Below are positions 17,691 to 51,659 of a stretch of DNA of 64,000 nt, in pieces. Position numbers and translations under genes: made by a program. Location: assembly GCA_029582155.1 (NCBI GenBank), contig CM055898.1, forward strand, positions 34,030,955 to 34,094,954, given 5' to 3'. This DNA is from Panopea generosa (taxonomy: Eukaryota > Mollusca > Bivalvia > Adapedonta > Hiatellidae). The first letter of the stretch is position 1, and each line of letters starts with the position of its first letter. Below the pieces are notes generated by a model. It worked only from the letters and a program-made list of their open reading frames with translations, did not search any database and had not been told where the DNA came from.

Positions 17691-17696
17691 GGTTGG

Positions 17697-25527: not shown

Positions 25528-27169
25528 GCAAACGATGATATATGTGTTATAAATATGTCATAAACGTCGTAGACTGGTGAGTAGAATTAAAGTAATCGGT
25601 GGAAAATCAGAGAATATAATAAAGAATATAAAGTTAGAAAGGCGTAGTGAAATACTTATATATGTTCCTACATATATTGCCAAAATGATGCAGTTCATGA
25701 GTAGGCAGAAGCCATTACCATTCCTTGTCGAACGTACAAGGTTCACGAACCATCAAAAATTGCTCTGCGAAAATAAAATGAAACCCTATTTTTTGTTATT
25801 TTGATTTTAATTATTTTTAACTCTTTAAAAATGTCGCGGTATTTTTTTCCAATCTTACGCTTTTCGGTTAATAAACTATCATCAAAATTATGCGAAAATA
25901 GCGAAATTATGTCATGCTACTACATTAAAGCCATTTTTAGGTAAATATATCATAAACAGTAAAGACACTCTTGCTACCTGACATTGTTTACACATGTTGC
26001 TCAAAGTGTACCAGACAATGGTCAGAAAAATGTCTTTGGGAATCAAGCATGCCTAAGTATACACAATACGATGCATTTAAACAATTATCAACAGTTATAA
26101 CATTTCCCTAAATGGAAACTAAATTAAGTTAGATAGTCAAATACCATATTTGCATTTTGTGTACATAAACATTTTTAGAACTTTTTTTTTATTAAAATTG
26201 TCATGTGTCCCTTTAATAGGATGAAGAAGCAACTTCCTTTTTTTTAGAGATAATACAGCATTAATTAAGTAGTGAGACGTTCAACACATATGTAAAGTAT
26301 TTTGAGTGTATACATAAACCCATGACATATTTCCGTACGTCGCTCGTCAGCCCCATTCTTATATCGCAACGTTAATGAAAAACAAATATATGCCATATCC
26401 TCAAGAGTAAATAGACCATGAATGTTTAAAATCGAACTCGACAAGTAGATGGTTAGCTAATGAGGGTTTAATTACTATTGCTGAGAGTGAAATGTGTTTG
26501 AATTAAGCTGTTAGTAATAGCGAAGGATTTGACATGAGTTCGCTATAGTCAGCAAACTCCAGGCTGTCTTCCTGACGTATACGTGGATTGAAGGGAGTAC
26601 ATTCGTACCATACCCGATCTAATGAAGACTGAAAGTACGTACTGGGTTCTTCGTATTTAATTCCACTTTTTATGTAAACTACTATAAAACATGGTGGTTG
26701 AGTTTCGTCCTGTCTAGTTGCCGTATTTGCGGGGCCTCAACACGCAAACACTCCTACAAGAAAATTAGACAGAATATTTTGGTGCCGGTTCCATAGCGTA
26801 ACAGAAAGGAAGTAGTAGAACAACATTCGAAAGGTGCCAACGCAATTAAATATTAACTAAACCTTTTTTCACCCAGCTATTACCAAAGATTCGACATATG
26901 TTTTCAACTATATGCATTAATCTATTCACCGGTCCTAAATTCTGTGGCAACTCAACATTAATCATCTTTAACCTAAGCCGGTTTGTTTTTCTGATTACGT
27001 TACCGGTTTACATACGCAGATGTATAAATCATTTATCAAATACGTAATGCTTAGAATAATAGAATGATATCTACAAGCCTAAAACAGATATTTAAAAAAA
27101 TAATGAAGAAAATGACTTGGATACGGTATACATATTAAGGAAGGGAGCTTACTCCTATATGAGATTTGA
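25528..27169. other. gene-free stretch
   Basis: AT-rich. Overlapping frames at 25558-25804 on both strands have no recognisable similarity. Nothing else was seen. Confidence 0.45.
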
Positions 27170-28640
27170 TATATTTCAGCAACAGTTATCGATCCCAATC
27201 AGCAAACTACTAAAGATAATAAGACACAATGGATGTAGCAGGCAACGCATTATCTAAAATCGCACCAAGATATTTGACAGATGTTTGTGATTTTATGGTG
27301 TGGTCATCACAAAGCACTGATATATTTTGATCCAAATAAAATACATTCTGTTTTTACAGAGATACACTGATGACAGTTGGTTGTCTATTAACGCTTCTTC
27401 TAGTTCATTGCCTAAAACTTCGCTAATACGTGTAATAGCATTATGCTCTTTATGTGAGAAAAGTACAGCACTGTCATCAGCATAGAGACTCCGTGTACAG
27501 TTTTGCCGTATGCTAATACTCATATCGTTTACATAGCATAATACAATAGTGGCCCTTTGTGGAACCCAACATACAATATTTTCACAATCGGACAAGGTAT
27601 TGTTAACATGAATACCTTGTGTTTTACTAGACAAATACCGGTGGAACCACTCGACTGACACCACGCCAATCGATTTAAATTTGCACATAAAATGCTGTTA
27701 GCAACTGTATCTTGGTTAGTACATGTGCCGCCGTTTTGACCCGTCTTTTTGGACATATATGATGTAGAATTGTGTCCTATATTTATTTTGCATAATGCGA
27801 TGTAGAGCCTTGGACCTCCTTTCTGGACACATAATGTAGACTTTTGACCCCTTGTTCAATCCGGGATTCAATCCTCTCCTGTCTAGTTTCGACCCCTATA
27901 ATTGATTTGAATGTAGAGTTTTGACCACCAAATTTTAAACTGCAATGTAGAGTTTGTGCCTATGTTTTGAAGTTTTACATGGCACATATCTACCCATTTC
28001 AGGTCAATTCCCACCCCCTCCCCAACCCCGGGCAAACGCCTTCTGCAGATCATGGATAATCAAGCCAATAAAGAGGCAATTTGCATTGTGCTTTTTATAA
28101 TACAAAAAATACTGGTCTATAGTTAGATATATCAGACCTATCTTTTTGTTAAACAAAGGTTTTACTTTGGCACTTTTAAGACCACGTGGAATATCATGAC
28201 TAGTAATGAAACTCTTTATCAACAAGGTTGTGGGTATCTTAAATGATGCTGCATTTTTTTAAATTCAAACTTTTTGCAGGAATATTGTCTAGTCCAGTGT
28301 TTTTTAAACAATTTAATTCACAAAGTTCTATTTATACAAATTATTCACTTAAAGTGCAAATGTTTAATTTTAACAGAATCTGGATTTCTTTTTCTTGCAT
28401 AAACATTTTTAGAAATAGTAGAATCAACATTTTATATGTTTTAGGGTAAACTGGTATTTTTTAACTAGCATAGAGGCAACATTGGTAAAAATGTTTTAAA
28501 TGATTGACAATTTTCATTATCAATTTCTAAAACAACATTTGTAGAAGATTTAGTCTTTTTACTGTATCCAAGGACTCGTTTAGAGATATATAACTCTTCC
28601 CTAAGTCCTTGATATTATATATAAAGTAATATCTTTTTTT
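27170..28640 (-). pseudogene. decayed non-LTR retrotransposon (LINE) reverse transcriptase
   Basis: Minus-strand pieces follow reverse-transcriptase order. SFITSHDIPRGLKSAKVKPL lies near 28220-28150. WFHRYLSSKTQGIHVNN lies near 27650-27600. VPQ is followed by CYVNDM and the catalytic LYADDSAVLFSH near 27480-27445. VKYLGAILDN lies near 27280-27250. The normal GVPQGS motif is altered (WVPQRA), and the region after it is shortened. Between the first two pieces lies about 200 bp of unrelated sequence, so the copy is dead. The motif spacing suggests a Jockey/CR1/L2-like clade. I saw no endonuclease or intact 5' part. Confidence 0.85.
27758..27975. repeat. degenerate repeat interrupting the LINE remnant
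   Basis: ATGTAGA followed by a variant of TTTTGACC recurs about four times (near 27768, 27800, 27833 and 27908, and again at 27943). It does not fit reverse-transcriptase coding and separates two RT pieces. Confidence 0.5.
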
Positions 28641-29042
28641 AATCAGTTCCAAAATAGTAGAATCTAACCCATAGTTCAGTTCTTTGTAGGCCTACTTCTT
28701 TTATGGATGCAACAGATATTGAAACTGGTTTTAACCTGTGAATAAAACACCTACATTGTATTTTTTAATGATCTAATAACAACATATTTGTATTTGTTAA
28801 AAATACCTTTTCCTTTTTTCCTGATCAAATTTGAAAATGTAAATGATCCTTATGACCCGTGATGTATAATAACGCTTTTAAATAATATCATTTCCTTTCT
28901 TTTTCTTAATAATATTTCATTTTGGGTAATAAGCATTGACACCTCGAGATATTGCGAGATTTGAGATTGGAAACGAGATTTAGCAGAACGGAACATTCTG
29001 GATAGAAACATAAACTGGAGGAACATTTCTTGATATTTTATC

Positions 29043-32000
29043 ATGGTGCGTGTGTATTTTTTGTTAATTTCTATATAAGCATGACACTTGTAATAAAAAT
29101 GATACTTTGGAAATGTGTTAATGCAGTTAATAACGCTCTATGTCCAATATAAAACTTAGGTTGTTCTGTTAGTATGGACGCCATGTGACTCGGAAAAATT
29201 GATCACGAATGGACATGCTCGTTTGATAATTAGTAAAATGTTTAATCATGGACATAATGAACTGATGATTGCATTATATAATTTTTAATTTTACATATTT
29301 ATCAATATTTAAGTATTTGCATAAATATATTTAAATTAAATAAGATGCAAAAATATTTTTTGTTGACAGTACCCCACCCACTGGTGATGAATGGTGTAAA
29401 TAATGTTTTCTTGGTCAGCTTAATATATTTCATTATAAATATTGTGAATGAGAATCCCTATCAGGAAACCATGTAATAAGTGATCTCAGCAGAAGTTACA
29501 GATTGAAGCGGGGATGGTAATGTAGGGGATAGGGTATTGGCCGCTCATGACAGAGGGCACAGATTCGATCTCTAGCTTGACCTGATCGATGCCTCTCTGA
29601 AAACAACACTCAGTACTGGTTCTATCCAGGACCCGGACTGACAGTAGTTTATATAAGCTCTGAGGTTTCATCGCAGTTGAGCTGAAATAAATTGGTAATA
29701 AACTATGTTGCAGATTCCATCCCAGGTGAGACCTTGTAGTCTCGTAACACCCAGTCAGAGCTTTAAAATCGTTGTCAAAGCTTCTTGTCCTCAATTCCAA
29801 AAACTTCTCTTTTTTTTAATGCTGAAAATTGAATAAATGTTAAGGTTAGTTTCTTGAATGTTGCTTGTCCTGGATGAGTGAAATTTTCCAATCCTGCCAT
29901 TTGTTCTACCCATAAAGCAAAAATAAATTAATTAGATAAATTATTTTCTAATTTCAGGTGTCGTTAAATCCAGTACAGATTTTCAGTCGTGGAGCTGAAG
30001 AGGAAAAGGCTGAGACAGCTAGACTGGTTAGTATTTTTTTGCATTTTTTATTTGTGCAACAAAAGACTGATATAGTGAAAGATATGCAACTCGTTCATGT
30101 TTTGTATACTGCCACTAAAATGTAAAAGATTAACTTAAAATTTTACATCAAACTGCAATATTTTAAATACAAAATAATTTTGAATAATCAAAACATAAAT
30201 AGAAAAGCAGTGTTTTTTTTCACCAATTTGGGAAGATGACCCATACCCTTGGAATTGGGAATTTTAGCAGCATTTTCATTAACATTGGGAAAACTTTTGC
30301 ATTAAGTTTATTTGTTCAACTTAATAAAAATGTGCAAACTTGCTACTCTGGCTGTTTAATTAAAGAATCAATGTCATACTCAATTCAGAATGGGGAAAAC
30401 TTTGTTTATTTTATCAAGGAATTATAGCAAGTTTCAATTTACAATTACTGAAGCTTTCAATTGGGAAGTTTTACAACTCAGTTGGGAAAAAAAGATAATA
30501 TTTGCCATTGGGAATATGACCCAATAATGGCTATACAATTGGCCGAAAAAAAACACTAAAAAGTAACATCCAGCTTACATTCTAAAAAAATGATTGATCA
30601 TTAAAACATGAGAATCATAGTTCTCCATGTTAATATTTTTTGATAAAAAAACATAACTGTTTTATAGCAAGAACTGCTTCTATTTACAATACATTTCAAG
30701 CATTTGAAACAAGATAAATTGTTTGTCAGATTAAATGGTGGATTATTTATGTTTACAAAATATATATTTCTTTTCAGTCCTCCTTTGTTGGTGCAATTGC
30801 CATTGGTGACTTGGTGAAGAGCACATTAGGTCCTAAAGGAATGGTAAGCAATGTGTTTTAAAAGCAAAATGAAAATTACATAACACTCAGATATTCAATT
30901 TAGTACCACACAGTGGAAGATATTTTCACTTCACCTGTTAGAAAGTTTAATGTGTATAATTGAATATGGCTGGAAATGCATTACTTAAAATATTGATTTT
31001 TTTATTGTTTACACGATTATTTATCCCTGTATGTGTATGTTTTTTTCTATAATGCAAATATATTCAAGTAACAGAATAAAGGGAATATATTTTTTAAACT
31101 GTCTCATAAATTTCAGGACAAGATTCTCCAGAGCATGGGTAGAGGAGAAAATATCCAGGTTACTAATGATGGTGCCACTATTCTTCGCTCAATAGGTGTC
31201 GATAACCCTGCTGCTAAGGTTCTTGTTGGTGAGTGCTGTTAAAGTCATCCTTACAAAATTGTTTGCTGACTCTGTATGTTTTATTGCCAATGCACACATT
31301 GGAAAGTTAAATTTCCCCTTAGTGTTTGGTCCATCTTATTTTAACATATTTTTGTGTGATCCACACAAAGTTGGAAACCGTGAGTTAATACATCCAAAAC
31401 AAGAAGGCCAAAAGGTATATTCAGTGTGTCTCGATAAATTTTGGCAAATGGAACATTTTGTCTCCTGAAAAGAAAGGTCTGGGTTGATCCCTGTGTATGT
31501 CAAGTGGTATAGTTGTAAATGTTTATTTAGATATATCTTGGCTGGAAAATTCCACTAGTCAGCTCACCATGACAAGTAATATTTGGTCAGTATGAGTAAG
31601 ATAAGTAATTGACCTTTATATTTCTTTGGTTTTATGCAATCATAAAACCAACTTATTGAGACGGGATGAGTAATTTTGGTCATAATTGGCTAGCCCCAAA
31701 CATATACTAATGAAAAAGTATTAATGTATGTTGATGTCTAGGTGTGTATATAATGTATATGTGTCATTGTAGATATCTCCAAGGTGCAAGACGACGAGGT
31801 TGGTGATGGTACCACATCAGTTGTTGTATTGGCTTGTGAACTTCTCCGGGTAAGTTAAACTGTGCAACAGTCGGGTCATTGTTGAAACTCACTTATGTTA
31901 CATGGGTTAATTTCTCAAAACTACAACTTCAAATACACAGATCTAAGAGGCATTTGTATTATTATTCATACTGGGACATGGCTATTTTGATCAAAGCTTT

Positions 32001-35000
32001 ATTTACAGACTCCCAGATACGGTGATGATTTTGTGTATATTTATTCAAGATTGAGCTTGGTAGTTCTAAGTTCTAATATTATAATGAGGGTATATTTACT
32101 CTTTGCCTTTAGAAATGGGGAGGTATATTTATTCCCTGTTAAACAATACATGTTTAATACATGTATGTTTTTATATTAGACCTTTTGGAAGAAAATTGCC
32201 AAAGAAATCAAAGAACATTACCCTATACTAGTATACACATGCAGTAGTTTTCAAAAATGTCTGAAATATTTGAAAATTCAAACTGAACTGTTCAGTTTAT
32301 TGATACAATGGATATTTTGTTGTTCTCACACATTTTAGAAAATCAAATAGTTAAAAATATTCTGTCTTTTCACTATTCAGGACGAATGAGGTAAATTGCC
32401 TTCTTTACATGAATGGGTGTCTATATATTTAAACCTATGATTAAGTAGTGTTTTTATATTTTATACATCAATGTTTCAGGAAGCAGAGGGTTTGGTATCC
32501 AAGAGGATCCATCCACAGACCATTATATCTGGATGGAGAAAAGCCACTGATGAAGCTAGAAATGCTCTCACCAACTTCGCAAGGGACCATGGGTAATGTG
32601 AAGCTTTACTTGTATTGTCACAATCATTGTTGATTAGTTTCAAGCTTATTTATTTTACATCGATTGTGAAATGAGTTCTTGCCATTTAGGTCTTACCAGG
32701 CTTTTAAGTCATTTTGAGTAGAGCCAGTACTGAGCACATACGCGGTTAAATGATTTGCTGAATGATGCCACACATGACGATTGCAGGGAATCGAATGTTG
32801 TCATTTTATATGAAGTGTTTTTATGCGGTTATTTAACACGAGAGACTTCATTAGAGGCGACCACATGGACAAGTTGAACTGTACATGTTACATGTGTCGT
32901 GGTTGTGCGAAAATGCTTCAAATGGCTGATCCATTGCAAGCATTTGTCAGATGTTGTGACTGCTACCTTGTTTTCATCGGCTGTTAAAAATTGCATAGTG
33001 AGGCAGGGCTTCTTGACATGGCGGTACTGGTTTTTGATGTTTGAAAAATGCAAACATTCATTTCATGTACATGAGCATTATGTTATAATCAATAAATCTT
33101 AACTATTATACAGGTCTGATCCAGCAAAGTTCAAGGCAGATCTTATGAACATTGCCAGAACCACCATTAGCTCCAAGATTCTAACACAATATAAAGACAT
33201 GTTTGCTGAGTTGGCTGTCAGTGCTGTACTTAGGCTCAAGGTGAATTTTGTGTTGCAATATTTTGATACTTTTAAAAGTTGTATATGTTAGAGTGTCTGG
33301 TTGTTTCGACGGAAAATATGAAATCATATTTAATACGTTACACTTTACAATGTAATCAACTGAGCACAAAATATTGTCTTCAATAACAATACTATGAGAA
33401 AAAGTCACTGGCATCACTTGTTTTGTATAAAAAATAACATTTCCATTTAACTTGTCAGAATATGTAACGCATGTATTAACCCTTTACTCCATAGATCCGC
33501 ATTTTCTTGCACCAATCACAGAATGCCTTTGAAAACAGTGCAGGAAGAGTTCAGATCACAGAAGGCCTTTGAAAACAGTGCAGGAAGAGTTCAGATTGCT
33601 GGTAACAAGCAATATGAACACTTCCTGCACTGTTTTCCACTTTGTCAGTTAATATAAACATAATTCACTCAATAATTCAAAAGCCTTCTATATTAGGTGT
33701 CCAAAGGTGTCTATATTAGAGGTGTCCAAAGGCGTCAATATGAAGTAAAGGGTAAGCTAGGTATTAGTGCATTGGATAGTGTTGGTTGCTCAAGCGAGAG
33801 GTTGCGGACTCCATCTCCAGCTTGACCAGTTGGCCTCTCAAAAACAACATCAGTATTGGTTCTACCCAGGAAGCAGATTCAAGTGATTCATTTAAGCTCT
33901 GAGCTTACTTTGCAATCAGAATTGAATAAATTAGAATAATAAGTGCATGTACACTGTAAACATATATATTTGTTTATATATAATAAAATTAAAGGGAATT
34001 TTTGCTGAAGATTCAAAATATGAACGAGATATGACTTTACAATATTGCTTATGTTGAAGTTAAGTATTACGTGTATGGAAATACCAATAAGACTATGATC
34101 ATTGTTGTTACAGGGCAGTGGTAACCTGGATGCCATCCAAATCATAAAGAAATTAGGAGGGGGATTACAGGACTCGTATTTAGATGAAGGTTTGTAGATA
34201 TATCGAAATCTTTAAAACATTGCATCCTTTCTCAGATGATTAATTGATAAGTGGATATACATGTAGCCCCAAATTAAAAAAGGGTTTTTTACTCCCAAGA
34301 TACGGAAAGATGCAGATAAATAGGCATATATTTAATCCCAAGATCGAGGGCATCCTTAAAATGTTTGCTGTGCTCTGACCCAGTATTTTTCATGTATGTA
34401 TGTAATTTTTTTAACTTTATTTTGATTTTTCATTAATAGTCATTTTAAAGCAAAATGGACAGAAATCATGAAAAAAATAAATTAAATGCTTTGAACGGCA
34501 ATATAAAAAGTTAGCTACAATTTTGAGTGAGTAATAGGGACAGGGCAAACAATTTATTTTAAGGATGGCCTGAGAAATAATGTGAGAAACTACTACTGCT
34601 TGCCTTAAAAATGTACTTCATAGATACCGCATTATTTCTTCATGGCAGGTTTTCTTCTGGATAAGAAAATTGGTGTTAACCAGCCCAAAAGAATAGAAAA
34701 TGCCAAGATTCTTGTAGCAAATACATCAATGGACTCTGATAAAATAAAGGTGAGTGCGTAGTTAATATCATTAAAGCCAGATGTATTGAAATAACATTAT
34801 GTTGACAAGGTATGGAATAAGATATATAATACTATGCAAGTTTATAAATAAAAAGGGGACTACCAGGCACATATTTTTTACCACATTATTTACATGTAAC
34901 CTGTCACATTGGAAAGGCATTTGAGTGTTAATTTAAAATGTCACCAATATTTTGTTTATAGAATATATGAAATTGAGGAAAATATCAAGATCTTAAAATT

Positions 35001-38000
35001 GCTTAAAAACAAAGAGGTGGGGTAGGCTAACTAGCCTGTCAAGTGATTGTACCTTTGTCCTTCATGAGAATGGTAATACATGCAGTAACCTTGGGTTGTA
35101 TAGGTAAAAATCTGATGCTAATTTGGCAGTCTAAAACTTCAGCAATGTCATTTCAGTAAATCGATCTATTTTTTACAGGTGTTTGGTTCCAAAGTAAAGG
35201 TGGATGCTATCTCTAAGGTTGCAGAGTTGGAACTGGCAGAAAAAGAAAAAATGAAGGATAAAGTAGCTAAAATTCTCAAACACGGATGTAATGTATTTAT
35301 TAACAGGTAAATGATATTCATTGGTCTTGTTTATTTATGTATTGTTTTTATTTGTAGTAAAAAATAAACAAATCATTGTCAGTAAAAATGCTTTATTGAG
35401 GACTTACATAAAATGTAAATGGGTTTCTTTTGATCAACTGATGTTGAAAAAAAAACTTTGAAAAAAGTGTTATCCTTTTTCAAAATGTGTAGTATCATTA
35501 ATACTTTACAGTGTCAATGTCAGGTTAAAATAATATAAAGTTTCATGTTTTTATATGTTACATGTACATTTTTTTCCCCCAGTTTGCAAAAAGGTATTGT
35601 CACTAAATTGGGTCTCCAGTCTTGAGGTTTATATTTCAGTTCTTTCTAATTTTAAATGATTTATATACCATTACTACTATATAATAGATAGTACATGTGT
35701 TTTATGTTCTCAGACAATTGATCTACAATTACCCAGAGCAATTGTTTGCTGATGCTGGTGTTATGGCAATAGAACATGCAGATTTTGAAGGTGTAGAGAG
35801 ACTGGCTCTTGTCACAGGTAACATTTTACATGTTTAATTGTTGAAAATGACATTTAACTCCATTAAAGGTTTTGGTATGTTAGGGCTTTTCCAGAATTAA
35901 ATGTATGGGGGGGGGGGGGGGGGGGGGTCGGACGGCAGTATAATTAAAATTTTATGCCTGATGGGTGTTTTCATAAAAAAAAATGATGCCTTGCGGGGTA
36001 AAAGCTTATTAAAATTTTATGCCTTGCCGGTATTTCCGTCTCTGAACCGTATTTTTTCTTCTCGAAATTTTATACATTTTCTGCCCAGATATTTCCTCCC
36101 GTCGTATACAAAAACATAAAATTGTCCTTCCCCATGTACCGCACCGAGTCAACATCCCGCAGCGTCTAGATTTCGGCGAGCGTCTCATCTTTATCGCAGC
36201 AGAAACTGCAGGTCTTTTAAATTTACCTTGATTTGACCTTTATGTTTGCCACTGACACGCGTGTTGTAACGATTGTAATACACAACCTCCATGACCAAGT
36301 GAACGTTTTACGCGACTACACAGTTGGACACTCGATACACTGGTGATGTTAATATTAGGAATTGTCTTCAATTAACTTTTTCATCTCAAACTGATTGATC
36401 TTTTTTGTTAAGACCGGATCATTTACCTCTCACCGCTATGGTCGTAGGTTCGAGTCCTGCTCGCTCCAAAAACTTTATGTGAGAAAGTTTCCAGTTACTT
36501 GCGGAAGGACGGTGGTTCTACTCAGTCTGACTCAGTCTGAGGTCTTCCTCCACCAGTAAAACTGGATATGCCATATATAACCTGAACTGTGTTGAAAATG
36601 GCGTTAAACCCCATTCAAAAAAAAAAAAAAAAAATTGTTAAGACCGCCATAATATAATTACATCACCCGGCAACAACATATGATTTAATTTATTTGTTTG
36701 AAACAAAGTATAATTATCTACTTTTGGACTTCCCGAAAAGGGACAAGAAACATACTCTTAGTCGTGAATAAATTATTAACATGGAAATGTACGAGCTAAT
36801 CAGGTGGCGGAATACACTCGTAGCAGGCCGTAACCACCTCTACTTAATTAAATTGATGCCGAGATGCCATGTCACAAAATTATCTCCTCAAGTAAATTTT
36901 ACGAATTATATATCAGTATTTGACGTATCGGATATGTTAACAAATACTCCAATACGGATATGAATATACAGACGTGTATATTATTAAATTCCGCAAAACT
37001 TACGATTCAACTCTACGGCGGCATTGCTATAATTATATGCATATCCGCGCTGTTTGTCAGATAGTGTAAAACACTAATTTATTCGGCACAAAAAGAAACG
37101 CCAAGAAATGCAAAGTCTATTGTGACAAAAAATCTAAATAAGTACATTGCGTTAGCAGTGAAAATAAAATCCACATTCTCAGATATGTCACCCCACACCC
37201 TATACGCCTCATTCTTACCCCAGTGTCTGAAAAAAATCATGGCGAAAAGCAGATATTTCTTAACGGTCATACAAAAACATAAATTGGACTGTGAAATTGT
37301 CTTTGAGCATCCATAATCGGATTGTTTGCCATCGGGTGTGCGAAATGAGGTCAAATTAGATTAAACCTTTATCGATAGTAGGGAGTAAATAACATGTGTC
37401 ATAATAATGTTTGTTTCACTGTCAGAGTGACGTCATCGGACATTGGCACAAGGCGTGCATAAATTTAGGCATGTGTAGCATAACTCTCTTTACGGATCGT
37501 ATCAATTTAATAGTAATTCTTTTTTAAGAAATTAGTATACTGAAAAAAAACATTTTAGAAGACAACTAGTTACAAACAAACACTAACCTTTAATTATTAA
37601 TATGTTGTTTTTTTTCTCGTTTGTTATCTGTAGTGCCCCTTTATTTAATTCTCGACCTGAGATAATTTGTGACGCATATCGGCATTAGATCAAAAGTGTA
37701 ACGTCGGCGTACTTCAAAGAAAGTAGGCAACCGTCCAGACTAGTGTTTTGGAAGCGTTATAATAAGAAAACATTAGAAAGGGGAGTTTAGCCTCTTTTTT
37801 TATTTTTATTTTGTGCATGGTGGTATTTTATCTAATTAAATTTTATGCATGGTGGTATATATCACAATTAAATTTTATGCTCTGTGGGTAAAAAAAATAA
37901 GTGCCGTCCGACCCCCCCATACATTTAATTCTGGAATAGCCCTTACCAAAATGTGACCAACAAAAACTTCTTTAATCTGAATGGTAAACATGAAAGAATA

Positions 38001-41000
38001 TTCTCATTCTGAAATAAGACAGCACGTAAATACTCCTTTGCGATCTTCACATTGTTATTTGGATTCTTTCTACAAATTCTACATTAAGTAATCTGGTATG
38101 ATCAAATCAAAATAAAATCGATGACAATTGTTTTTACTTGTGCTCAAAATCATCTTTACTGTTTCAGGTAGTGAAATATACTCCACATTTGACAATCCAG
38201 AGTCGTGTAGACTTGGTGAATGTGATCTGATAGAGGAGATCATGATTGGAGAGGATAAACTTTTAAAATTCTCAGGTAAAACAATAACACGCACGTGTAT
38301 CTAACATATTAGATAAGCTCTTGTTTTAGTTCCCTAAACTCAAGTTAATTCTTTGATATGGAGTTATAGTAGGATGTCATTAGAATTGTGCATATTTTAG
38401 CTTTTTTTGTTTTCAGTAGATCTTGAGTGTAAATTACATACAGATATCTGAGATATGTTCACAAACTATCACTATGTTTCAAAGTGATATATTTTGAATG
38501 TTGCATTGTAACATTATATGTATTGAAAGTGCCGACAGGAGTGGTAGGTTAAGAGCATTACTTATTATCTGAGAGGAATTTTGTCTCCATCTTCTGGGAT
38601 TCCATGGAGCCCCAAGTGAAATACTTTTTTGTTTTATGTGGTAAATTCCAATGATAACTTGAAATCAGTATTGTTTTGAATGTTCACATATCGGTGATTG
38701 AAAATAATGAAAATTAAAAAAAACACTTTATAATTCTATTAAATAAGATATATCTATCAGCATTTGTACAGGGCTAGCCCGTTTGGTTCCGGCAAAGAAC
38801 AGAATCACTGTCGATCTCTGCAGAGGGGTAGGAATCCTCCGAATGGGTGTCATGTTCATTTTATCATTTTTTGTCATGTTCACTATTGTGGTTAAATTAT
38901 CAACCCCTGTGTGGTTCCAGGTAGCAATGAGTGATGGCAAGAATAGGATCACTGTGGCTTATGCATGTCGTAAGAAGCGACTAATTGAGTAATATGATAG
39001 AATTTGCTGAAACTCTATAGATCAGTTCTGCAGATATCAAGGTTCTAGGTTCATTCTGCATATTCATTTGTTGATGTATTTTTTTTTAATCTGTATGTTA
39101 ATTTGTGGTTTTTGTACATGTAGAGTGAAGTTGGAATCTTCCTTCCTGTTGGCGTGAATAACATATAATATGTTGGTACAGGGCTGTTTTGTATCAAGTA
39201 TTTGTATGCTACCTTGGTTTTCAATGCCCCTCAAATTATGCATTTTGTCACACTTTCTTATCAAGTGACTCTGAATAGTCTCCAGTCTGCCTGTATAGTC
39301 TCATTATATGGGTGGACAAATGTTAACACATGTTCAACTTGTGAGGGTCTGGTAAATTTGGCATCAAAAGTGAATTGTGTCCCAATGATTGTACAATGTC
39401 CTCTTGGTCAGGGAAAGTGTAAACATTTGTCTTGCAGGTGTGAAGCTCGGTGAAGCTTGTACAGTTGTGTTGCGTGGAGCCACGAAACAGATCTTAGACG
39501 AGGCAGAAAGGTCACTTCACGACGCTCTCTGTGTACTTACACAAACTGTAAAAGAAACAAAAACTGTGTATGGAGGTGGCAGCTCGGAGATGTTGATGGC
39601 TGACGCTGTGTCCAAGCTGGCTGCCAAAACACCAGGAAAGGAGGCTGTTGCCATGGAGGCCTTTGCCAAGGCTCTGAGAACTGTAAGCAGGATATCATTG
39701 AAATGATTGAAAAGCATGCAAATATACATTGTTCCCTCGTCCGCCAGATTTGCCTATATGAAGTCTTGGGCAATAGAGTAGTTTACACTGACATAGGTGT
39801 CGATTCATGTACTATTTATACACTTTTTTCAGCATTGTTAAGATATATTGTTGTACCTTCCTTGGTATCTCAACTTAACTCAATAAAGAAGAAAGATGGA
39901 TATTGAAATAAGAGGATACCAGAGTGTTTTGTCATTTTGTATCAAACAACATCAACAGTTTCACTTATGCCAGTCCTGATTGATAGATTTGAATTAAATA
40001 TAAAAAATAAATAAGGTTAAAAATGGTGACCACACTGCATTTAAATTTTAAGAGGAGGTATCTAGAATGTTTATCAATTAATATTATGCTAATGTAGTTT
40101 AGCTCGCACTTCAGTACTAGATAATTGTTTTTAGAAGAGGTATTGGGGCCAGGCCTGAACCCCTGACCTTTTGCATGAGCAGCCAACTCTTGTCCACTGT
40201 AGATTGATAGAGGCATCACAGCTCATGAGTTCATTGCACTTTCTGTTCAGATAGTTATGATTTATACTCTTACCTTACAGCTGCCATCTACAATGGCTGA
40301 TAACGGTGGCTATGATAGTGCCCAGCTGGTGTCCGAGCTACGAGCCATTCATACAGAGGGGAAGCAATCATGGGGAATTAGTAAGTCTACTAGCTATTAT
40401 ATTTGTTTTCTCTCTGATTTGCAGTGATCTGTAACCTCCAAAAGTCATATACATGTATATGCATCTTTATCTGTAGTGCTTAAACCACATTCCTTCTTAG
40501 AGCTAGCTTTCACTGCTTTGCTAGGCTATTTAATATAATGTTGTTGTTGTATGGTGCTAAGCGTCGCTTTCAACAATTTTTCAGTCATATCGCGACGGTG
40601 TCTGCTTGAGACAGTATTCTAAGCGCTGTCACACTGAAGTATCATGCCGCAGACACATAGTTTGATACCCCATCCAGTCACATTATACTGACACCGGGCC
40701 GACCAGACCTAGAACTCTTCTCTAAATGCTGAGTGTCAAGCGAGGAGACTTCAAGTACCATTTTTAAAGTCTTTGGTATGACCCAGCCGGGGATTGAACC
40801 CACGACCTTCCGCATGCGAGGCGGATGCTCTACCACTAGATCACGCCGCGGTCTATTAAATATAAACAAGAGGAGTAAATGGAACATTTGTGTCTCACCA
40901 TTGCTTGGAGTTGTATTGTTTTTTGTCTACAGAACTCCTTCAACATCTGTGGTTTGATTTAACCTAAACTTGCCGGGAAAGAACTGTGTGAGGGGTAGTT

Positions 41001-43674
41001 CCCTTTTGTGTTCCCATTTAATGATTTTGAGAAATGGCCCTTTCCATTTTTGGAATTATGTCTTTGCCATGCTTCTTCTCTTAAACGAACGCTGACAGCG
41101 GTGTGGTCTAGTGGTAGAGCGTCCGCCTCACATGCGGAAGTTTGTGTGTTCAATCCCCGGCCGGGTCATACCAAAGACTTAAAAATGGTACTAGAAGCTT
41201 CTTTCCTCGCTTAGCGCTCAGCATTGAGAGGAGAGTTCTAGGTCTGGTCGGCCCGGTGTCAGTATAATGTGACTGGGTGGGGTATCATTCCAAGTGTCTG
41301 CGGCATGATACTCCAGTGTGACAGCGCTTAGAATACTGTCTCAAGTAGACACCGTCGCGATATGACTGAAAAATTGTTGAAAGTGACGCTAAGCACCATA
41401 CAACAACAACATAAACCAACACTTAAATTTCAAAGAAACTTGCTTTTGACATTCTGGTTCAATCATACTCAGCTGATTTACAGACCTTTACAATGTACGT
41501 ATGAAGAATCTTGTTCTCTTGAACCATCATATGTATTTCACTGAGACTTGCTGTGAAGGATGTGTGACATCAGTTTCACATTGTCACTTTTCTTCAGCTG
41601 AAACTTGCTTAGAAGGATCATCCTAAAGCCTATTTTCGTATGTCCACCCATCTGTATTCGTGTTCCATGATTTTTGGCTTGAGTTGTGGCCATAGATTTT
41701 TCCTAATTAAAAACCTTGGCTGTACTTCTCCACAGTCATCGACCTCAGTTTGACAAAGTTTGCTGTGAATGATCAGTGAAGTTTTTATGTGTAAATTTAT
41801 CAACTTTGCTTTTTGGTGACATTTCAGTGTGTACATGCAGTCCTTAAACTCACGAGTTTTGAGCATTAACTATAACATTTCAGATAATTATATGAGGAGA
41901 CATAGCTCCCCCACCCTCCTAAAATATTCTAGTTAATAAATATGGAGAAACTTCTGCCAAAGTTATAATTAAGTTTTGATTTAAATAAACATATTCAAAT
42001 TCAGTACAAATGTCAATTATAAAAATGTTGAATCAGAATATTACAGGTGTGCAATTTTGCTGCTTGAGATAAATTCACAGCGTTTGAAAAGAAATGCTAA
42101 ATGTCTCCAGACTGATATTTTTTGGTGGGGAAACATATTTTTTTAATTTGGATTAAATTTATTTTGCCAAATCGATGATATTCGCCAGCTTGATGGTGTT
42201 GTTAAGTGCAGGATATATACAGGATGGGTAGCATTTTCTCCAGTATTAAATGCTTTGTCTAATAAATTTTCTTTAATCGTTCGTGCACAACTCGAGTGTC
42301 CTATTGAAGGGTTTAGGTTTACTTTGTTTAAATGACTTTATTATGTTTGAAGTGATTTTCCATTAATTATGATAACTCACTTATATATACCTGATATTAG
42401 TTGCTAGATTCCTTCTTACACATTTGCTCAACTCATTTGCTCAACTCTACTAACTATAAATAGCTGTGGCGACAGAGTGGCTGAGAGGATGGCAACAAAG
42501 TGTTAAGACGCCTCCATGATGCTGTATCACTTACCTGGCTGCTACATCACCAATCATATCATTGTGTCTTGTTATACGTGGCCCTGGTTTCACTTTACAT
42601 CTCCACTACTTCCCCAGTCTCAAATCTGAGATTTTTATACGCCAGCCATTCAGAGAATTGTGGGGCATTCATTAAGTGTTGCCCTGTCCGCCTGTTGTGC
42701 ATTCAAGGTTCCCATTAATAATTTCTGAGGGGGGGTATATGTATTTAATAATATTTCATTGCTATTTGCATAACTATAAAAGCAGGTCAAGTGCAATATT
42801 TGTCAACTTCATTTAAATGTTACAGGATTTATAATGGCCCCTACTCGACTTTATATTGGTTAAAAGTAAAAAAAATTGTTTCGTATCAGTAGTGGGGTAT
42901 TCATATCAACACATATTTCTATTAAAAAAAAAAAAAGAGAGAGAAAGCTTCTCATCGACTCTGTTAAGAGTTAAAATCATATTTATGAGACAAAAAAATT
43001 GGATACCTTTTGAGTGGAAATGCGAGATTCGGTATATATACAAGTTGAGATGTTTAATAGTGAAACCAAGGCCTGATCATGCATACTCATTGTTCATATA
43101 TTCATCACCATCTTCTTTTTCCCTTATCAACCAGACATGGACTTGGGCGAGGTGGAAGATATGGAACTGCTCGGCATTACCGAGTCATTCCAAGTAAAAC
43201 GACAAGTACTCATGAGTGCAAGCGAGGCAGCAGAGATGATACTACGTGTGGACGATATCATTAAAGCAGCACCCAGACAGAGGCCCCCAGATACCCGATG
43301 CCATTGATAATCTTAAGCAATTATAGACTAATTAATTAATTACATATGATCAAAGAATTAATTAAATGTAAGTGATAAAATTGAAAATGTCTGATGGAAT
43401 CATTCGTTAAAAAAAAAAGAGTATAAAAAAAAGAAACCGTTTTTAAAATTAAAAAGTCACGACTTGAGTTTATTGTTCATTGCTTGATACTCTCCTTGCA
43501 GACATGGATGTAGGTGAGGTTGCTGATATGGAGAAACTAGGCATTACAGAATCGTTTCAGGTGAAGCGACAGGTCCTCATGAGTAGCACAGAGGCTGCAG
43601 AAATGATCTTGCGTGTTGATGATATCATCAAAGCGGCACCTAGACAAAGGCCACCAGACAACAGAATGCATTAA
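29043..43674 (+). CDS. CCT2: T-complex protein 1 subunit beta (CCT beta), 15 coding exons
   Basis: This is one of eight subunits of the cytosolic TRiC/CCT chaperonin, which folds actin, tubulin and other proteins using ATP. Coding exons: 29043-29045, 29958-30026, 30778-30843, 31117-31228, 31773-31849, 32480-32592, 33114-33240, 34114-34189, 34649-34749, 35179-35306, 35714-35817, 38168-38275, 39438-39682, 40281-40380, then 43502-43674 (or 43135-43307). The sum is 1,602 bases and 533 residues; human CCT2 has 535. All introns are GT-AG. Nucleotide-binding signatures are visible: LGPKGMDK at about residues 41-48, GDGTTSV at about 94-100 and YGGGSSEM at about 406-413. The family tail [10 protein letters not shown] is present. 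Exon 1 would hold only the ATG directly before a donor (ATG|gtgcgtg), giving an N-terminus of [10 protein letters not shown]. That start is inferred and is the least certain part. The 2.35-kb intron 11 is mostly a transposon. Confidence 0.97.
29508..29705 (+). mobile_element. tRNA-derived SINE, family C, in CCT2 intron 1
   Basis: It has a diverged tRNA-like head (GATAGGGTATTGGCCGCTCA, CAGATTCGATCTCTAGC), then AGTACTGGTTCTATCCAGGA, AAGCTCTGAGG and AAATAAATT at the end. It is truncated relative to 13301-13498. Confidence 0.65.
33480..33753 (+). mobile_element. MITE with TTAA target and CCCTTTACT ends (piggyBac-like), in CCT2 intron 7
   Basis: It starts CCCTTTACTCCATAGATCC directly after TTAA (33476-33479) and ends TGAAGTAAAGGG. 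The interior has a duplicated CAGTGCAGGAAGAGTTCAGA segment and an inverted copy of the same (CTTCCTGCACTGTTTTCCA). Next to the 3' end are only two to three units of a ~25-bp repeat (TCTATATTAGAGGTGTCC). TTAA plus CCCTTT ends fits piggyBac-derived MITEs. The expanded relative is at 61846-62691. Confidence 0.75.
33762..33938 (+). mobile_element. tRNA-derived SINE, family C, in CCT2 intron 7
   Basis: This is a diverged copy directly after the MITE. It carries ATTGGTTCTACCCAGGAAGC, TTTAAGCTCTGAGC and GAATAAATTAGAATAA. Confidence 0.6.
35883..37942. mobile_element. 2.06-kb non-autonomous DNA transposon in CCT2 intron 11 (PIF/Harbinger-like)
   Basis: TTA flanks both sides (35880-35882 and 37943-37945). 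The terminal inverted repeats read GGGCTTTTCCAGAATTAAAT and, inverted, GGGCTATTCCAGAATTAAAT. They continue through a G run and GTCGGACGGCA. The left G run is 21 long (35907-35927) and the right is 7. Inside each end AATTAAAATTTTATGC-like phrases repeat, possibly transposase-binding subterminal repeats. No transposase was recognised; the short frames inside are unsupported. Without the element the intron would be about 290 bp, like its neighbours. A SINE is nested at 36417-36634. Confidence 0.85.
36417..36634 (+). mobile_element. SINE family A nested in the intron 11 transposon
   Basis: The flanking TTGTTAAGACCG is duplicated exactly (36405-36416 and 36635-36646). The body starts inside the tRNA-like head (B-box region GGTCGTAGGTTCGAGTCCTG), has AGTTTCCAGTTACTTGCGGA, and ends in a run of about 17 A. 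It is 5' truncated relative to 20212-20473. It is younger than the element it sits in. Confidence 0.92.
40539..40852 (-). mobile_element. SINE family B, minus orientation, in CCT2 intron 14
   Basis: The tRNA-like head is near 40850 (inverted: TGATCTAGTGGTAGAGCATC). The TTG-repeat tail lies at the low-coordinate end. The flanks repeat CTATTWAATATAA (40526-40538 and 40853-40865), a target duplication. It is inverted relative to the copy at 41099-41412. Confidence 0.92.
41099..41412 (+). mobile_element. SINE family B, plus orientation, in CCT2 intron 14
   Basis: The head has GTGGTCTAGTGGTAGAGCG and a B-box-like GTTCAATCCCC. The body contains GTTCTAGGTCTGGTCGGCCC and GACTGAAAAATTGTTGAAAG. The tail is ACAACAACAACATAA. 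Confidence 0.92.
43135..43307 (+). CDS. CCT2: CCT2 alternative terminal exon, upstream copy
   Basis: This 173-bp exon follows the acceptor TTATCAACCAG and begins AC, the phase needed by the exon ending at 40380. It encodes 56 residues from [18 protein letters not shown] to the end RPPDTRCH and then TGA. It differs from the downstream copy at 7 of 56 residues (L/V, E/A, L/K, A/S, S/T, T/N, C/M). About 27 of the 49 unchanged codons differ silently. The frame and acceptor are intact. No AATAAA lies between its stop and the second copy, only weaker variants such as TATAAA. Transcripts using it may therefore run through the second copy as 3' UTR. It could also be a recently disused copy, though the substitution pattern argues against that. 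Confidence 0.9.
43502..43674 (+). CDS. CCT2: CCT2 terminal exon, downstream copy
   Basis: It follows a good acceptor (GATACTCTCCTTGCAG), is also 173 bp and also begins AC in the same phase. It encodes from [18 protein letters not shown] to RPPDNRMH and TAA. The MEKLGITES version keeps a lysine where the upstream copy has leucine. It covers the C-terminal equatorial segment, including [10 protein letters not shown] and the tail, which in the family points into the folding chamber. Confidence 0.93.
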
Positions 43675-45620: not shown

Positions 45621-45718
45621 TACTTCTCAAGTTTCACAAAGTAGAACAAAGGACAGATGCAAAAGAATTTGAATAAGCCTTGTCATTGTTGGGGCGTTTT
45701 AAGATGGACATATTTGTA

Positions 45719-48700
45719 TTAAGGAGGAATCTACCTTTTAAATTATTTTCGAAATCAGTGGAATATTTGGTATGTAATGAAATTAGAAGTAATTTCCAAT
45801 TTGGATATGCTTTTTTTTCTGCGGTAAATATAACACTTCTTTACCTATGACGTCGTAAACATGGCCATGTTTGGTCTTTCTGACGTCCCGATTTATAGCA
45901 GCAAAATCGCGTATTTGTCGACCTCAGTCAATTTATACCGAATGTACAGAATCGAAACACATATCACCACGTACACATTCAACGGATATATGAATTTACA
46001 TATGCAATAATTACGACGAACGCCAAATTCTGAAAATACTAGCGAAAAACGGAAATTATTATTTTCTCGATTTTTTCGGAAAAAAATGCTTCAAATCAAA
46101 ATTACCAAAAAACAAACCGAGCGATTTTGGAATAATTTTTATTTGATTTCTAACAATATGCTTCGCAGTGATTGTGAGATTTTTAGAACAATTGACAAAC
46201 TAGATTTTTTTTTATTTTTAATTATTTAACCCCACCCTACGTCAAAAAAGACGTCAACATATTACATAATTCTACGCGTTTTCCATAAGATTTTTGGCGG
46301 TTGATTAAGGTTAAAATATTTTCTAAATCAGTGGCTCAATTAGTATATTATGAAACTATAAGTAATTTCCAATGTGAATATGTATTTTTTGCAGCGGTCA
46401 ATAGAATATATATTTATATGTGACGTCGTAAACATGGCCATGTTCAGCCTTTTTGACGTCCCAATGTATAGCAGCCAAATCGCATATTTTTCGACCTCAG
46501 TTGAGTTATTCCTAATACACAGAATAGAAACATATATCACCATGTACACATTTTACGGATGTTTGGATTTACAAATGCAAAAATTACGACGAACCCCACA
46601 TTTTGAAAATACTAGCGGAAAACGGAAACTATTTTTTTCTCGATTATTTTTCGAAAAACGGCTTTAAATCAAAATTACCGCAAAACAAATCAAGCGAATT
46701 TTGCATATTTTTTATATGATTTTAAACTATATATTGTACAATTATTGTGAGATTTTTAGAAAAATTGACAAACTAGATTTTTTATGATATTCAATTATTT
46801 ATCCCTACCATACGTCAAAAAAACGCTTTAAAGCAAACGTCAACGTCGGTATAGCGCATGAGGTATACGTTTTGTGATATTTAAGCAAGTTTGTTCTTAC
46901 CATTATATTAGTATTTTGTACACACAAGTTATATATACTTCTGCTGTTTAGTGTCAACTTATTTGTCTATTGCATTTATGATAGCGTGTCTGTTTAGTGC
47001 ACGTACAAAACCGTCATTTTTTTTTCACTTACAGGGAACTGGATTCCAAAACAATATTCTCATTTCTGACTAGCTCCACGACAGCTAGTGAAATGTGGAC
47101 ATCACGGTTGTCAATTATTAGAACAACAGGTCTGGCCTTTCTAAAGTTCGGAGCAAACTGTTCAGTACACATTCATAAAATGAGCTTGAAACAATACCCA
47201 CTATAGCAATGAAAAGCCACCCTTCCACCCAGCCCCATGCTCCTACGTACGTTCAATGACAATATACCTGGATCGTGGCTTTTCACTGCTCATCATAGAC
47301 GGTATTGTTTCAAGCCCATTTTATGTATGTGTAACAGTTTGCTCCGAATTTTAGAAAGGCCAGACCTGTTATTCTAATAATTGACAACCGTGATGTCCAC
47401 ATTTCACTAGCTGTCGTGGAGCTAGTCAGAAATGAGAATATTGTTTTGGAATCCAGTTCCCTGTAAGTGAAAAAAAATGACGGTTTTGTACGTACACCAA
47501 ACAGACACGCTATCATAAATGCAATAGACAAATTAGTTGCCACTAAACAGCAGAAGTATATAAAACTAGTGTGCACAAAATACTAATATAATGGTAAGAA
47601 CAAACTTGTTTAATTATCACAAAACGTATACCTCATGCGCTATACCGACGTTGACGTTTGCTTTAAAGCGTTTTTTTGACGTAGGGTAGGGTTAAATAAT
47701 TGAATATCATAAAAAATCTAGTTTGTCAATTTTTCTAAAAATCTCACAATAATTGTACAATATATAGTTTAAAATCATATAAAAAATATGCAAAATTCGC
47801 TTGATTTGTTTTGCGGTAATTTTGATTTAAAGCCGTTTTTCGAAAAATAATCGAGAAAAAAATAGTTTCCGTTTTCCGCTAGTATTTTCAAAATGTGGGG
47901 TTCGTCGTAATTTTTGCATTTGTAAATCCAAACATCCGTAAAATGTGTACATGGTGATATATGTTTCTATTCTGTGTATTAGGAATAACTCAACTGAGGT
48001 CGAAAAATATGCGATTTGGCTGCTATACATTGGGACGTCAAAAAGGCTGAACATGGCCATGTTTACGACGTCACATATAAATATATATTCTATTGACCGC
48101 TGCAAAAAATACATATTCACATTGGAAATTTCTTCTAGTTTTAAAATATACTAATTGAACCACTGATTTAGAAAATAATTTAACCTTAATCAACTGCCGA
48201 AAATCTTATGGAAAAGGTATAGAATTATGCAATATGTTGACGTCTTTTTAGACGTAGGGTGGGGTTAAATAATTTCAAATAAAAAAAAATCTAGTTTGTC
48301 AATTGTTCTAAAAATCTCACAATCACTGTGAAGCATATTGCTAGAAATCAAATAAAAATTATTCCAAAATCGCTCGGTTTGTTTTTTGGTAAATTTGATT
48401 TAAAGCATTTTTTTCGAAAAAATCGAGAAAATAATAATTTCCGTTTTTCGTTAGTATTTTCAAAGTGTGGCATTCGTCGTAATTTTTGCATCTGTAAATT
48501 CATATATCCGTTGAATGTGATCGTGGTGATATGTGTTTCGATTCTGTACATTCGGTATAACTTGACTGATGTCGACAAATACGCGATTTTGCTGCTATAA
48601 ATCGGGACATCAGAAAGACCAAACATGGCCATGTTTACGACGTCATAGGTAAAGAAGTGTTATATTTACTGCAGAAAAAAAGCATATCCAAATTGGAAAT

Positions 48701-48773
48701 TACTTCTAGTGTCATTACATACCAAATATTCCCTTGATTTCGAAAATAATTTAAAAGGTATATTCCTCCTTAA
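45719..48773. mobile_element. 3.05-kb foldback element (near-complete palindrome) with pogo-like transposase remnants
   Basis: The left half from TTAAGGAGGAAT is matched, inverted, up to 48773, with its centre near 47246 and a loop of only about 60 bases. TA flanks it on both sides; alternatively TTAA is the target and the ends are GGAGGAAT. Each arm holds two tandem diverged copies of a ~550-bp module (about 45740-46260 and 46310-46830). Close to the centre each arm encodes RPVILIIDN followed by HISLAVVELVRNENIVL. This resembles the second catalytic-Asp region of DDE_1 (pogo/Tigger/jerky) transposases, which fits a TA target. It lies in the CCT2-CEP290 intergenic space. Confidence 0.92.
47338..47471 (+). 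pseudogene. pogo/Tigger-like DDE transposase fragment, right arm
   Basis: Plus-strand translation gives APNFRKARPVILIIDNRD, VHISLAVVELVRNEN and IVLE. Then the similarity stops at a donor-like CCTGTAAGTG. In DDE_1 proteins this is the conserved 'RP-ILL-D-H-SL-V-EL-N-I-L' block around the second catalytic aspartate. The mirror copy lies at about 47030-47160 on the minus strand. Upstream, LFQAHFMYV may belong to it, but stops interrupt the frame. The remnant is short and broken. Confidence 0.6.
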
Positions 48774-48775
48774 TA

Positions 48776-51659
48776 GATATACATATACATGTTCTGATGT
48801 TTTTTTTACCAAAGTGAGAAACTTGATTGTTTCGTTAGTTGGTAAACAGTTTGTGTCGAGTCGTTTTCTCAGAAACTTTTAATGGCAGATTTGCAGAGGA
48901 ATACACTACACAATTGCACAAGAAGTGGTGACCTTGGCAGGTTCCATAATTCTTTTAATTTTGAATATAAGTTTGGCCCATGTTGGTTTTTAAAAAATTG
49001 TGAAAAGTCAATTTCTCGGACACAGGAAATGAAATGATACTTTCAAAACAATTGTTCAATTAAAGAACCAGACGTGAACTGCACGGGCTCCATTACTCCA
49101 TCAATCACAAACGAGCATTCATTTGTTTGAATTAGTAAGAAAGTGGAGCGAATAGAATGTTGGCTGCTCACGCCAGCGATCCCTAGAGGCAAGCTTGAGA
49201 GATTTTTGACAATTTTGTTGCATGTTCAAATTTAGATTAGCGTCTAAAACGATTTTATTTCCAGAAAATATATAATTTTCTGCATGATTTGACCAATTTA
49301 AGATTTATTTGAAAGAGTATTAAAAATATTATGAATAATTGTTGGCTAAGGTCTATTTTTGTTGGAAGTTGTTTTGTAAAAAGCAGTCATGGGCTTTCTT
49401 ACAATTGAGCTACCAGTAAAGTAAATAAGTATTAACTAAATAACATACTTTCATTCACCTGTCTTTATTATGTTTTCACCAATTTTGAGTTGTGCTCAAT
49501 AAGTAGAGTATTTCTTGGATCTTAACCAAATTTATACAGAGTGTTTAAGACTTGTACATGTATTTAGATCAGTTTTGGTAACCAGTCAATTCGAACCATT
49601 ATCCCAAGAATTCTGTAAAGATTATGAAAATGGCATGTCGTGTCAATAGCTTGAAACAGTTATTGCAAGATTCTCTTCAGAATTGTACAGAATGTTGCTT
49701 ATCACTTGACATTCCATTGGATTGATGTCCAGCTCTGTGGATATGAATTGACACGAGTAATGTCCCTTAAATGTAAAATTACATTTTATTCAACATCTAC
49801 ACAACTCCACAAATATCACTGGATTATTTTTTAATTTATTCACACTTTCACAATACCTTGGATCTGCAAATAGTTAGCTAATAAGGAGCCCCATCTTTAA
49901 TATCATTAATACGCCACATTACTTCTCTCCCTTACTGACCGGTGTAATTGGGCAACAAAAGATGGACACTTAATTGATGGAGTTTTAAAAACAACAAATG
50001 TACATGCTTATAGACCTATGTGTAAAATTTTATTATAAAGTACTATACATTTAGTTAAATAATAAATAGCATATAAATCTATTTAACCTTGGACGGTAGA
50101 GTATCACAGATCCTATTTTATGACTTGACACTTGAACAGTAAGTGTTGACATTGAGCACAATATACTGGTACTGTGTTTTGAGAATTCTACTAACGAAAT
50201 GGCAAGCACAAGCTTATTTTGTTTCCGTTATGGCCAGGCTTCTGTTTCACAAATACTTAATTGAAAACTTAATTTTGAATAGTTATTTATTTAGTTTATA
50301 ATCTTACTAAAACCAAATGCAGTTTTACTGGAATCACTCTAAAGTCATGGTCGCCTGGCTGCTTTTCTAAGATTTAAGTACAATTTATATGTTGGTGAAG
50401 CAGAAGCCGGGTCCTGTATAAAGCTTTCATGGGTATGGTTATTCATGTGTAATTCTTTAGTTCCATCAGAAACGAGTAATGTGCAGATTCATAAACAATT
50501 TGTATACATATGAAGTTAATAATTCAAAACAGGTTGAATAATGAAATGTGGCACTGTTTAAACCAAGAAGAAAGCACTAGTCTTGATCCTCTTGCTAGAT
50601 CTTGCGTTTTATTTTATATGTGCAAGTCGAATCAAAATATTTAGTGTTATTTCTCTTAAGATGTTTATAAATGATCAAAAAAGAAAAAAGTGACCATGAA
50701 AAAAATATATTTAAACACTCTGTAAGAACGGGTCTTGGGAAAAAAGACAATTATTTGTTATTTACTGAACAACAAAATTGTTGTTAGAAAAAAAATGATA
50801 TTTAAGATTACTTCCTTGTTATAAAAAATTACCACTCCCATTAATTATTGATCATTTTGAGCTTTTTAAAATGTCTTTGTTTTGTTGTTTTTTGAAGATG
50901 TGGGATGGTGCACCCTTTGTACCTTTTCTTGTTACATGGAACCGTACCAACTCATTGGTGTTGGCCTCATACTTTCCTAGCTCTGATAAATATACTTTGC
51001 TCAACTTGTAAACCAATACTTAAGTTACATGTAGTTACTAATAAAAAAAGAAAACCTTATAGTGAATGATTTTTTCTGTTCGACAATATCAAGATTTCAA
51101 ACAAAATTTCAAACATTAAACACTGGAATGTCAAATTACTACAGGAAATGCCTGGAAGTATATGAATTCCAGATTGGAATGGCAGTTGTAAAAAAATCTA
51201 CATATAAACTGGACGGCAGTTCAGCATTTTTATACAGATTTGTAAACTACATGTGGTATTGATATAATAATTATTCTATATTAAATTCTATGTTTAGTTT
51301 ACGATCAACAAATCATAACTTCAACAGTTGAACAAGTAAGAAATATACCATTCGTCTCTAATTCTTATATTACTATATTAGTTGCATGTATTTTCCCACA
51401 TGGAATGTTTATGGTGACAACTGGATAATTCGTGTAGAATTAATAGTGGCACTGATAATACTACAAAGATATTTTATATTTTTTCCCCCCAAAATAAATA
51501 TTTTTTCCTTCCTTTCAAATGCACACATGGTTTGTCTCCAACCTCCATCCAGGCAGCTATATCATTTGGTACTTGATCCACTCTCTTTACATATATAAAG
51601 TATTGTCATGTATTTGACACATTCACACGCTAAAGTCTACGTTGACAGATCTCCCTCTA
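48776..51659. other. intergenic stretch between convergent gene ends
   Basis: No gene was found. A weak family C SINE-like phrase (AATAGAATGTTGGCTGCTCA) lies at about 49150-49170. The part nearest 51660 should contain the CEP290 3' UTR, whose end I cannot place. Confidence 0.45.

Follow-up and report, generated by a model that had tools for sequence, protein, structure and literature searches.

The terminal coding exon of CCT2, the gene for the beta subunit of the chaperonin TRiC, is present as two intact adjacent copies in the genome of the bivalve Panopea generosa. We analysed a 64,000-nucleotide stretch of contig CM055898.1 (the window; all positions are counted from its first letter), where CCT2 spans about 29 kb to 44.5 kb on the plus strand. 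We call the upstream copy exon A and the downstream copy exon B. The pair is best explained, and in our judgement probably so, by an old tandem duplication yielding two alternative terminal exons that are kept by selection and chosen by 3′ splice site from one donor. CCT2 would then probably encode proteins with two slightly different C-termini.

CCT2 carries two intact terminal exons

Joined with exon B, the predicted product scored 936.6 bits against the CCT-beta model NCBIfam TIGR02341 (chap_CCT_beta; cut-off 522.15). The match, scored for isoform B only, covers residues 7-525 of 532 and the model over its full length. The product also matches the CCT2 chains of the PDB (4b2t_B, E 1.2e-263), and its top named hits come from Ruditapes and Dreissena. 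For comparisons we used 264 CCT2 proteins, unweighted, pooled from the top 120 matches in each search of a set of three (1479, 503 and 505 matches). The protein clusters used for homologues were formed at 90% identity, where isoforms of the A/B kind would merge. Trees were built with 33 rows (last exon omitted), 49 rows and 30 rows, drawn from the 264 proteins and the window. In the tree lacking the last exon, the gene falls within a 9-row clade holding Dreissena and the Ruditapes-like P0007 (99/96). The joined frame is open over 532 residues with either terminal exon, and every joint is gt/ag. The last shared exon, which we call exon 13 by counting from the first exon that could be joined, is in phase 1 and ends at 40380|gtaagt.

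Exons A and B have equal length, phase and acceptor position, and each follows an AG, continues the frame of exon 13 and ends in its own stop codon. A reading made earlier from the sequence only had described the pair in these terms, and its counts are confirmed: 49 of the 56 residues are identical, and 27 of those 49 codons differ silently. At the nucleotide level 45 of 173 positions differ, 32 of them third codon positions. The seven replacements (L/V3, E/A7, L/K11, A/S28, S/T29, T/N53 and C/M55, in exon numbering) include the Leu/Lys and Glu/Ala changes and the different last tripeptide, RCH or RMH, that had been pointed out. Since the copies match each other by blastn at E 2.4e-30, chance resemblance is excluded. 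The GC fraction at third codon positions is 0.50 for A and 0.45 for B, against 0.39 for the remainder of the gene.

Performing tblastn with both peptides over the whole window, we recovered just the A and B copies and otherwise three matches with E of at least 3.3; no third copy, and no retrocopy revealing past A or B splicing, was present in the 64 kb. A whole-genome search (1.47 Gb), which scores its best candidates only, gave one CCT2 locus with both terminal exons inside it. Among the scored candidates there was no CCT2 retrocopy or third terminal exon, and a separate full CCT2 gene copy, of the kind seen in the CCT6A/B paralogues, was not found. In a chaperonin-family search of the genome, four loci match to the profile end (positions 487-489 of 490), and CCT2 is the only one with two such matches. 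The family search also matched C4:14891984-14892910 (minus strand); the match covers 294 positions of the profile within a single frame of 340 residues that contains one TAG. This match is apparently intronless, and CCT2 itself has no match there.

Adjacent homologous last exons of the same phase and length, each with its own acceptor and stop, define the tandem duplicated terminal exons of the type described for oyster AOX, and the CCT2 pair shows all these features, acceptor A being weak. We also considered mutually exclusive internal exons, which hold no stop and have constitutive exons on either side; this class does not fit, as each copy holds its own stop codon.

The duplication appears old and both copies selected

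By the Nei-Gojobori method, 31.5 of 36.0 synonymous sites differ between A and B (pS 0.875, saturated), and dN is only 0.10. Among fourfold third positions, 12 of 19 differ. We then simulated neutral copies with uniform mutation and point changes only (5000 runs). At 0.1 changes per site 4.7% of them still had an open frame with 49 or more of the 56 residues retained, and at 0.2 changes per site none did (0/5000). Saturated silent change against a low dN, taken with this simulation, argues that purifying selection has acted on both copies as CCT2 protein.

We further compared the copies with 19 clam-like exons, rows chosen by hand for their similarity and tail motif, irrespective of species name. 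Of the positions in these exons 32 are invariant, and A and B each deviate at one of them, the same in both (V42I). Residues unseen in the 19 rows number five in B and three in A, while each of those rows has 0-4 when set against the other 18. Copy A thus seems to have been held slightly more strictly than copy B.

The saturation of the silent sites indicates that the A/B split is old, although we give it no date, and the earlier suggestion of an old duplication with selection on both copies is supported. The longest run identical between A and B is 9 nt, a length reached in 4742 of 5000 random placements, and the silent differences are evenly spread. The terminal-exon trees rest on 56 columns, too few to decide grouping. 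In the 49-row tree A and B group together with one further row, P0136 (94/80), and in the 30-row tree they group weakly (90/72). Constrained trees placing A with RCH-type rows (p-AU 0.337), B with RDH-type rows (0.335) or A with RDH-type rows (0.328) were neither supported nor rejected. On the age of the duplication relative to other bivalves the trees speak weakly, and older origins are not rejected. When the exon A peptide was searched against genome contigs, the best 80 of 111 relatives were archaeal loci; exon B peptide searched against viral contigs gave no loci.

One donor and two probably competing acceptors

With a stop codon in both copies, the model needs no machinery for mutually exclusive splicing, and two competing 3′ splice sites suffice. 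Joining donor 40380 to acceptor A (43135) would give a protein ending in TRCH. Joining it to acceptor B (43502) would give a protein ending in NRMH, and A would leave with the intron. The A-type mRNA would stop in A and carry the 194-bp spacer and exon B as 3′ untranslated region (3′-UTR) to the poly(A) signal at about 44491, unless cleaved earlier. The earlier statement that each transcript ends in only one copy would therefore be right for the protein but not for the mRNA, as the A-type message may contain exon B in its 3′-UTR, like the oyster AOX message (PMC5589949). Oyster AOX also gives the precedent for reading the CCT2 pair as two acceptors, since the same architecture there has proven mRNAs (PMC5589949).

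We scored the acceptors with a matrix made from the 13 other acceptors of this gene, which is a crude score from one gene. Acceptor A scored -0.1 and acceptor B 8.7, both inside the range of those 13 sites (-4.2 to 12.4 by leave-one-out scoring). Between 40400 and 43700, 4 of 192 AG sites score as high as B (B counted). As acceptor B is the stronger by this score, we would tentatively take isoform B as the default and isoform A as the regulated form.

Some observations weigh against two competing acceptors. Acceptor A is weak: 37 of the 192 AG sites score as high (A counted), so the matrix fails to single it out. The spacer contains two ATTAAA hexamers (43361 and 43448), but a count of 2 for A[AT]TAAA is at chance level (shuffle mean 1.85) and leaves separate 3′ ends unsupported. 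Finally, a donor-like AAT|GTAAGT after 43367 scores 7.6, a value reached by 64 of the window's 3740 GT sites, and could yield an A-to-B spliced, stop-containing RNA. A separate proximal poly(A) site for A was considered and, with the spacer hexamers at chance level, is not claimed.

The intron before the duplicates holds two tRNA-derived copies resembling short interspersed elements, in inverted orientation (40538-40853 and 41094-41412). Their inverted arms of 209 and 92 nt are 93% and 89% complementary, and an Rfam scan gave a tRNA-like match at 40779-40842 as its sole result. The pre-mRNA could form a long hairpin here, between the donor and acceptor A. A 32-nt inverted repeat (42580-42611 / 43042-43073, 72% complementary), one arm of which lies 61-92 nt upstream of acceptor A, may be due to chance.

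Two C-termini that are probably near-interchangeable

Among the 56 positions of the exon, ranked by variability in the 264 proteins, the seven differing positions (3, 7, 11, 28, 29, 53 and 55) rank 1, 11, 6, 27, 17, 5 and 7. Their mean entropy is 2.20 versus 0.92 over all positions, a value as high in 10 of 20,000 random sets. Because the differences concentrate at variable positions, they look like tolerated drift. To place them, we used the structure model of a close relative. This model is poor overall (mean pLDDT 64, TM about 0.49 to CCT2 chains) and was used for secondary structure only; its confidence is good at about residues 401-500 (block means 82-93) and lower at 501-520 (68 and 53), residue 500 being exon position 23. 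Position 3 belongs to a turn, 7 to a strand and 11 to a short helix; 28-29 are part of the long C-terminal helix, and 53 and 55 fall within the disordered tail. The early differences are carried by a hairpin and short helix that presumably sit after the nucleotide-binding region. The model thus puts five of the seven differences outside the flexible tail, and the tail pair alone would face the folding chamber in the sense of the sequence-only reading. That reading's proposal of functionally distinct chaperonin rings is not supported by these results. An LC3-binding motif of human CCT2 may lie within this exon and is not used in the argument.

We regard it as unlikely, though worth stating, that the lineage long kept two C-termini of an obligate chaperonin subunit so that the A/B choice builds TRiC rings differing in hairpin, short helix, C-terminal helix and chamber tail, with different ATPase-domain or tail behaviour, either in particular tissues (e.g. 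sperm or ciliated gill) or under stress. The placement of E/A7, L/K11 and the A/S28 and S/T29 pair in structured elements would suit such rings. Serine 28 and threonine 29 of copy B are also rare (5/264 and 4/264 proteins), which makes these two positions the best candidates for a real difference. The C-terminal tails of human TRiC touch substrate (PMC10188570), and the two AOX copies of oysters differ in their response to air exposure (PMC5589949). However, the differing positions are concentrated among the variable ones, the tail holds only two of them, and A and B deviate equally little at the invariant sites. The two proteins are probably near-interchangeable in the ring, and any difference most likely lies in expression and 3′-UTR control. 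Since the choice of terminal exon also alters the 3′-UTR, its effect may fall on mRNA control no less than on the protein.

It is improbable that a single copy is in present use, the other having fallen out of use too recently to show any damage. The weaker acceptor A, not distinct among other AG sites, is what such a loss might look like. Yet saturated silent change with few replacements requires long selection on both copies, and a neutral drift of just 0.2 per site already destroys the pattern.

The donor-like site at 43367 raises a further explanation, that exon A serves mainly as a regulatory switch. Splicing from exon 13 to A and then to B through this site would put the stop of A 60 nt before the junction and expose the RNA to decay. 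The implied intron of 134 nt would, however, be half as long as the shortest of the 12 introns compared (273 nt), and a decay switch has no need of a conserved 56-residue protein, yet exon A retains the CCT2 sequence. We hold this account to be very improbable.

A recent duplication, gene conversion or an assembly artefact, to which the weak grouping of A and B and their shared I42, unseen in the 19 clam-like rows, might point, is hardly credible and was rejected as the main account, because the 45 differences are evenly spread without a conversion tract and the flanks share short matches only, the best of them (13 nt, E 0.003) falling within an A-rich stretch.

Gene structure and other features of the window

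The coordinates of the gene are collected in Table 1. The first joined exon begins in frame at codon 2, and several relatives' proteins begin with, e.g., MVSLNPVNIF; a Met-only first coding exon is therefore likely. The ATG we propose for it is one of five ATG|GT[AG] candidates in 26001-29957.

Table 1. Coordinates of CCT2 and its duplicated terminal exons in the window
Feature	Position	Strand	Remarks
Likely start codon	29043..29045	+	Putative end of Met-only first coding exon, ATG/gtgcgt boundary
CCT2 joined exons, set of thirteen	29958..40380	+	Continuous frame when joined
Joined exons 1-5	29958-30026, 30778-30843, 31117-31228, 31773-31849, 32480-32592	+	
Joined exons 6-10	33114-33240, 34114-34189, 34649-34749, 35179-35306, 35714-35817	+	
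Joined exons 11-13	38168-38275, 39438-39682, 40281-40380	+	
Intron upstream of duplicate exons	40381..43134	+	Shared donor TTA|GTAAGT to exon A acceptor
Terminal exon copy A	43135..43307	+	173 nt, 56 residues + TGA, tail RCH; acceptor ...TTATCAACCAG
Spacer	43308..43501	+	194 bp; would be intron for isoform B, 3′-UTR for isoform A
Terminal exon copy B	43502..43674	+	173 nt, 56 residues + TAA, tail RMH; acceptor ...CTCTCCTTGCAG
Likely shared distal poly(A) signal, AATAAA	44491..44496	+	Followed by T/GT-rich stretch; motif only

At 28991-29045, immediately 5′ of the probable start codon (29043-29045), a heat-shock-element-like GAACATTC runs into TTCTGGATAGAA. This dimer is the only one in 28501-29500, and chance could also give it. 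Some 1.2 kb downstream of the likely poly(A) signal of CCT2 lies a large near-perfect palindrome (45711-48781), either a fold-back element or a long-read artefact. Its main arms (46072-47024 / 47470-48422, 953 nt) are 97% complementary; other arms are 93-99% complementary, and overlapping weaker ones 76-82%. A minisatellite at 17696-19479 has a 67-bp unit and a 201-bp higher order, and further minisatellites lie at 9594-9938 (66 bp), 11160-12099 (32 bp), 58060-58495 (44 bp) and 61857-62578 (25 bp). On the minus strand, 27296-27697 is an open frame with a YADD motif and resembles a reverse-transcriptase remnant; it has no Pfam match at E 0.01.

Relation to known systems and meaning of the pair

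The closest known system is the alternative oxidase gene (AOX) of oysters (PMC5589949). In Crassostrea virginica and C. gigas, terminal exon 10 of this gene is a tandem duplicate, each copy with its own stop. An alternative 3′ splice site gives proteins of equal length, and the longer mRNA contains both copies. The form using the first copy dominates under air exposure, and according to the authors the duplication predates the divergence of these oysters. CCT2 resembles it in being a bivalve gene with a duplicated terminal coding exon and own stops, and with alternative 3′ splicing predicted. The AOX copies, however, differ at 15 of 41 residues (C. virginica), the second being much more conserved, whereas the CCT2 copies differ at 7 of 56 and look about equally constrained; the AOX isoforms are also proven by cDNA and stress data (PMC5589949).

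Human capping protein beta also has homologous alternative 3′-terminal exons of similar length and phase that encode a structural C-terminus, but there the choice goes with separate poly(A) sites (PMC3228551), while the CCT2 spacer hexamers are at chance level. Like mutually exclusive internal exons from tandem exon duplication (PMC9013439, PMC3228551), the CCT2 copies are tandem, homologous and equal in length and phase, with one per protein; unlike them, the pair is terminal and exclusion follows from the stop codons. Testis-specific CCT paralogues such as CCT6B (PMC8176918, PMC13043943) similarly provide a second form of a chaperonin subunit, but as separate genes, whereas CCT2 here is one gene with two last exons.

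In the open-access literature, as judged from its listings, we found no description of duplicated terminal exons in any CCT gene, in line with the earlier remark that no case was described for CCT2. Planarian CCT duplicates are reportedly also second forms of chaperonin subunits carried by separate genes. The type of event is already known, and CCT2 appears new for it.

In the usual view TRiC has a fixed complement of eight subunits and gains its variety through duplicated genes. A conserved pair of CCT2 terminal exons would show that an essential ring subunit is able to vary by splicing. In the literature searched, chaperonin variety comes from separate paralogous genes; here, if the unlikely reading of distinct rings is true, the diversity in TRiC would arise at the level of splicing. 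Standing beside oyster AOX as a second bivalve case, the CCT2 pair would hint that duplicated last exons may recur in bivalves. Should the two proteins be equivalent, the pair is still a clean natural experiment on what leads an organism to keep an exon in duplicate.

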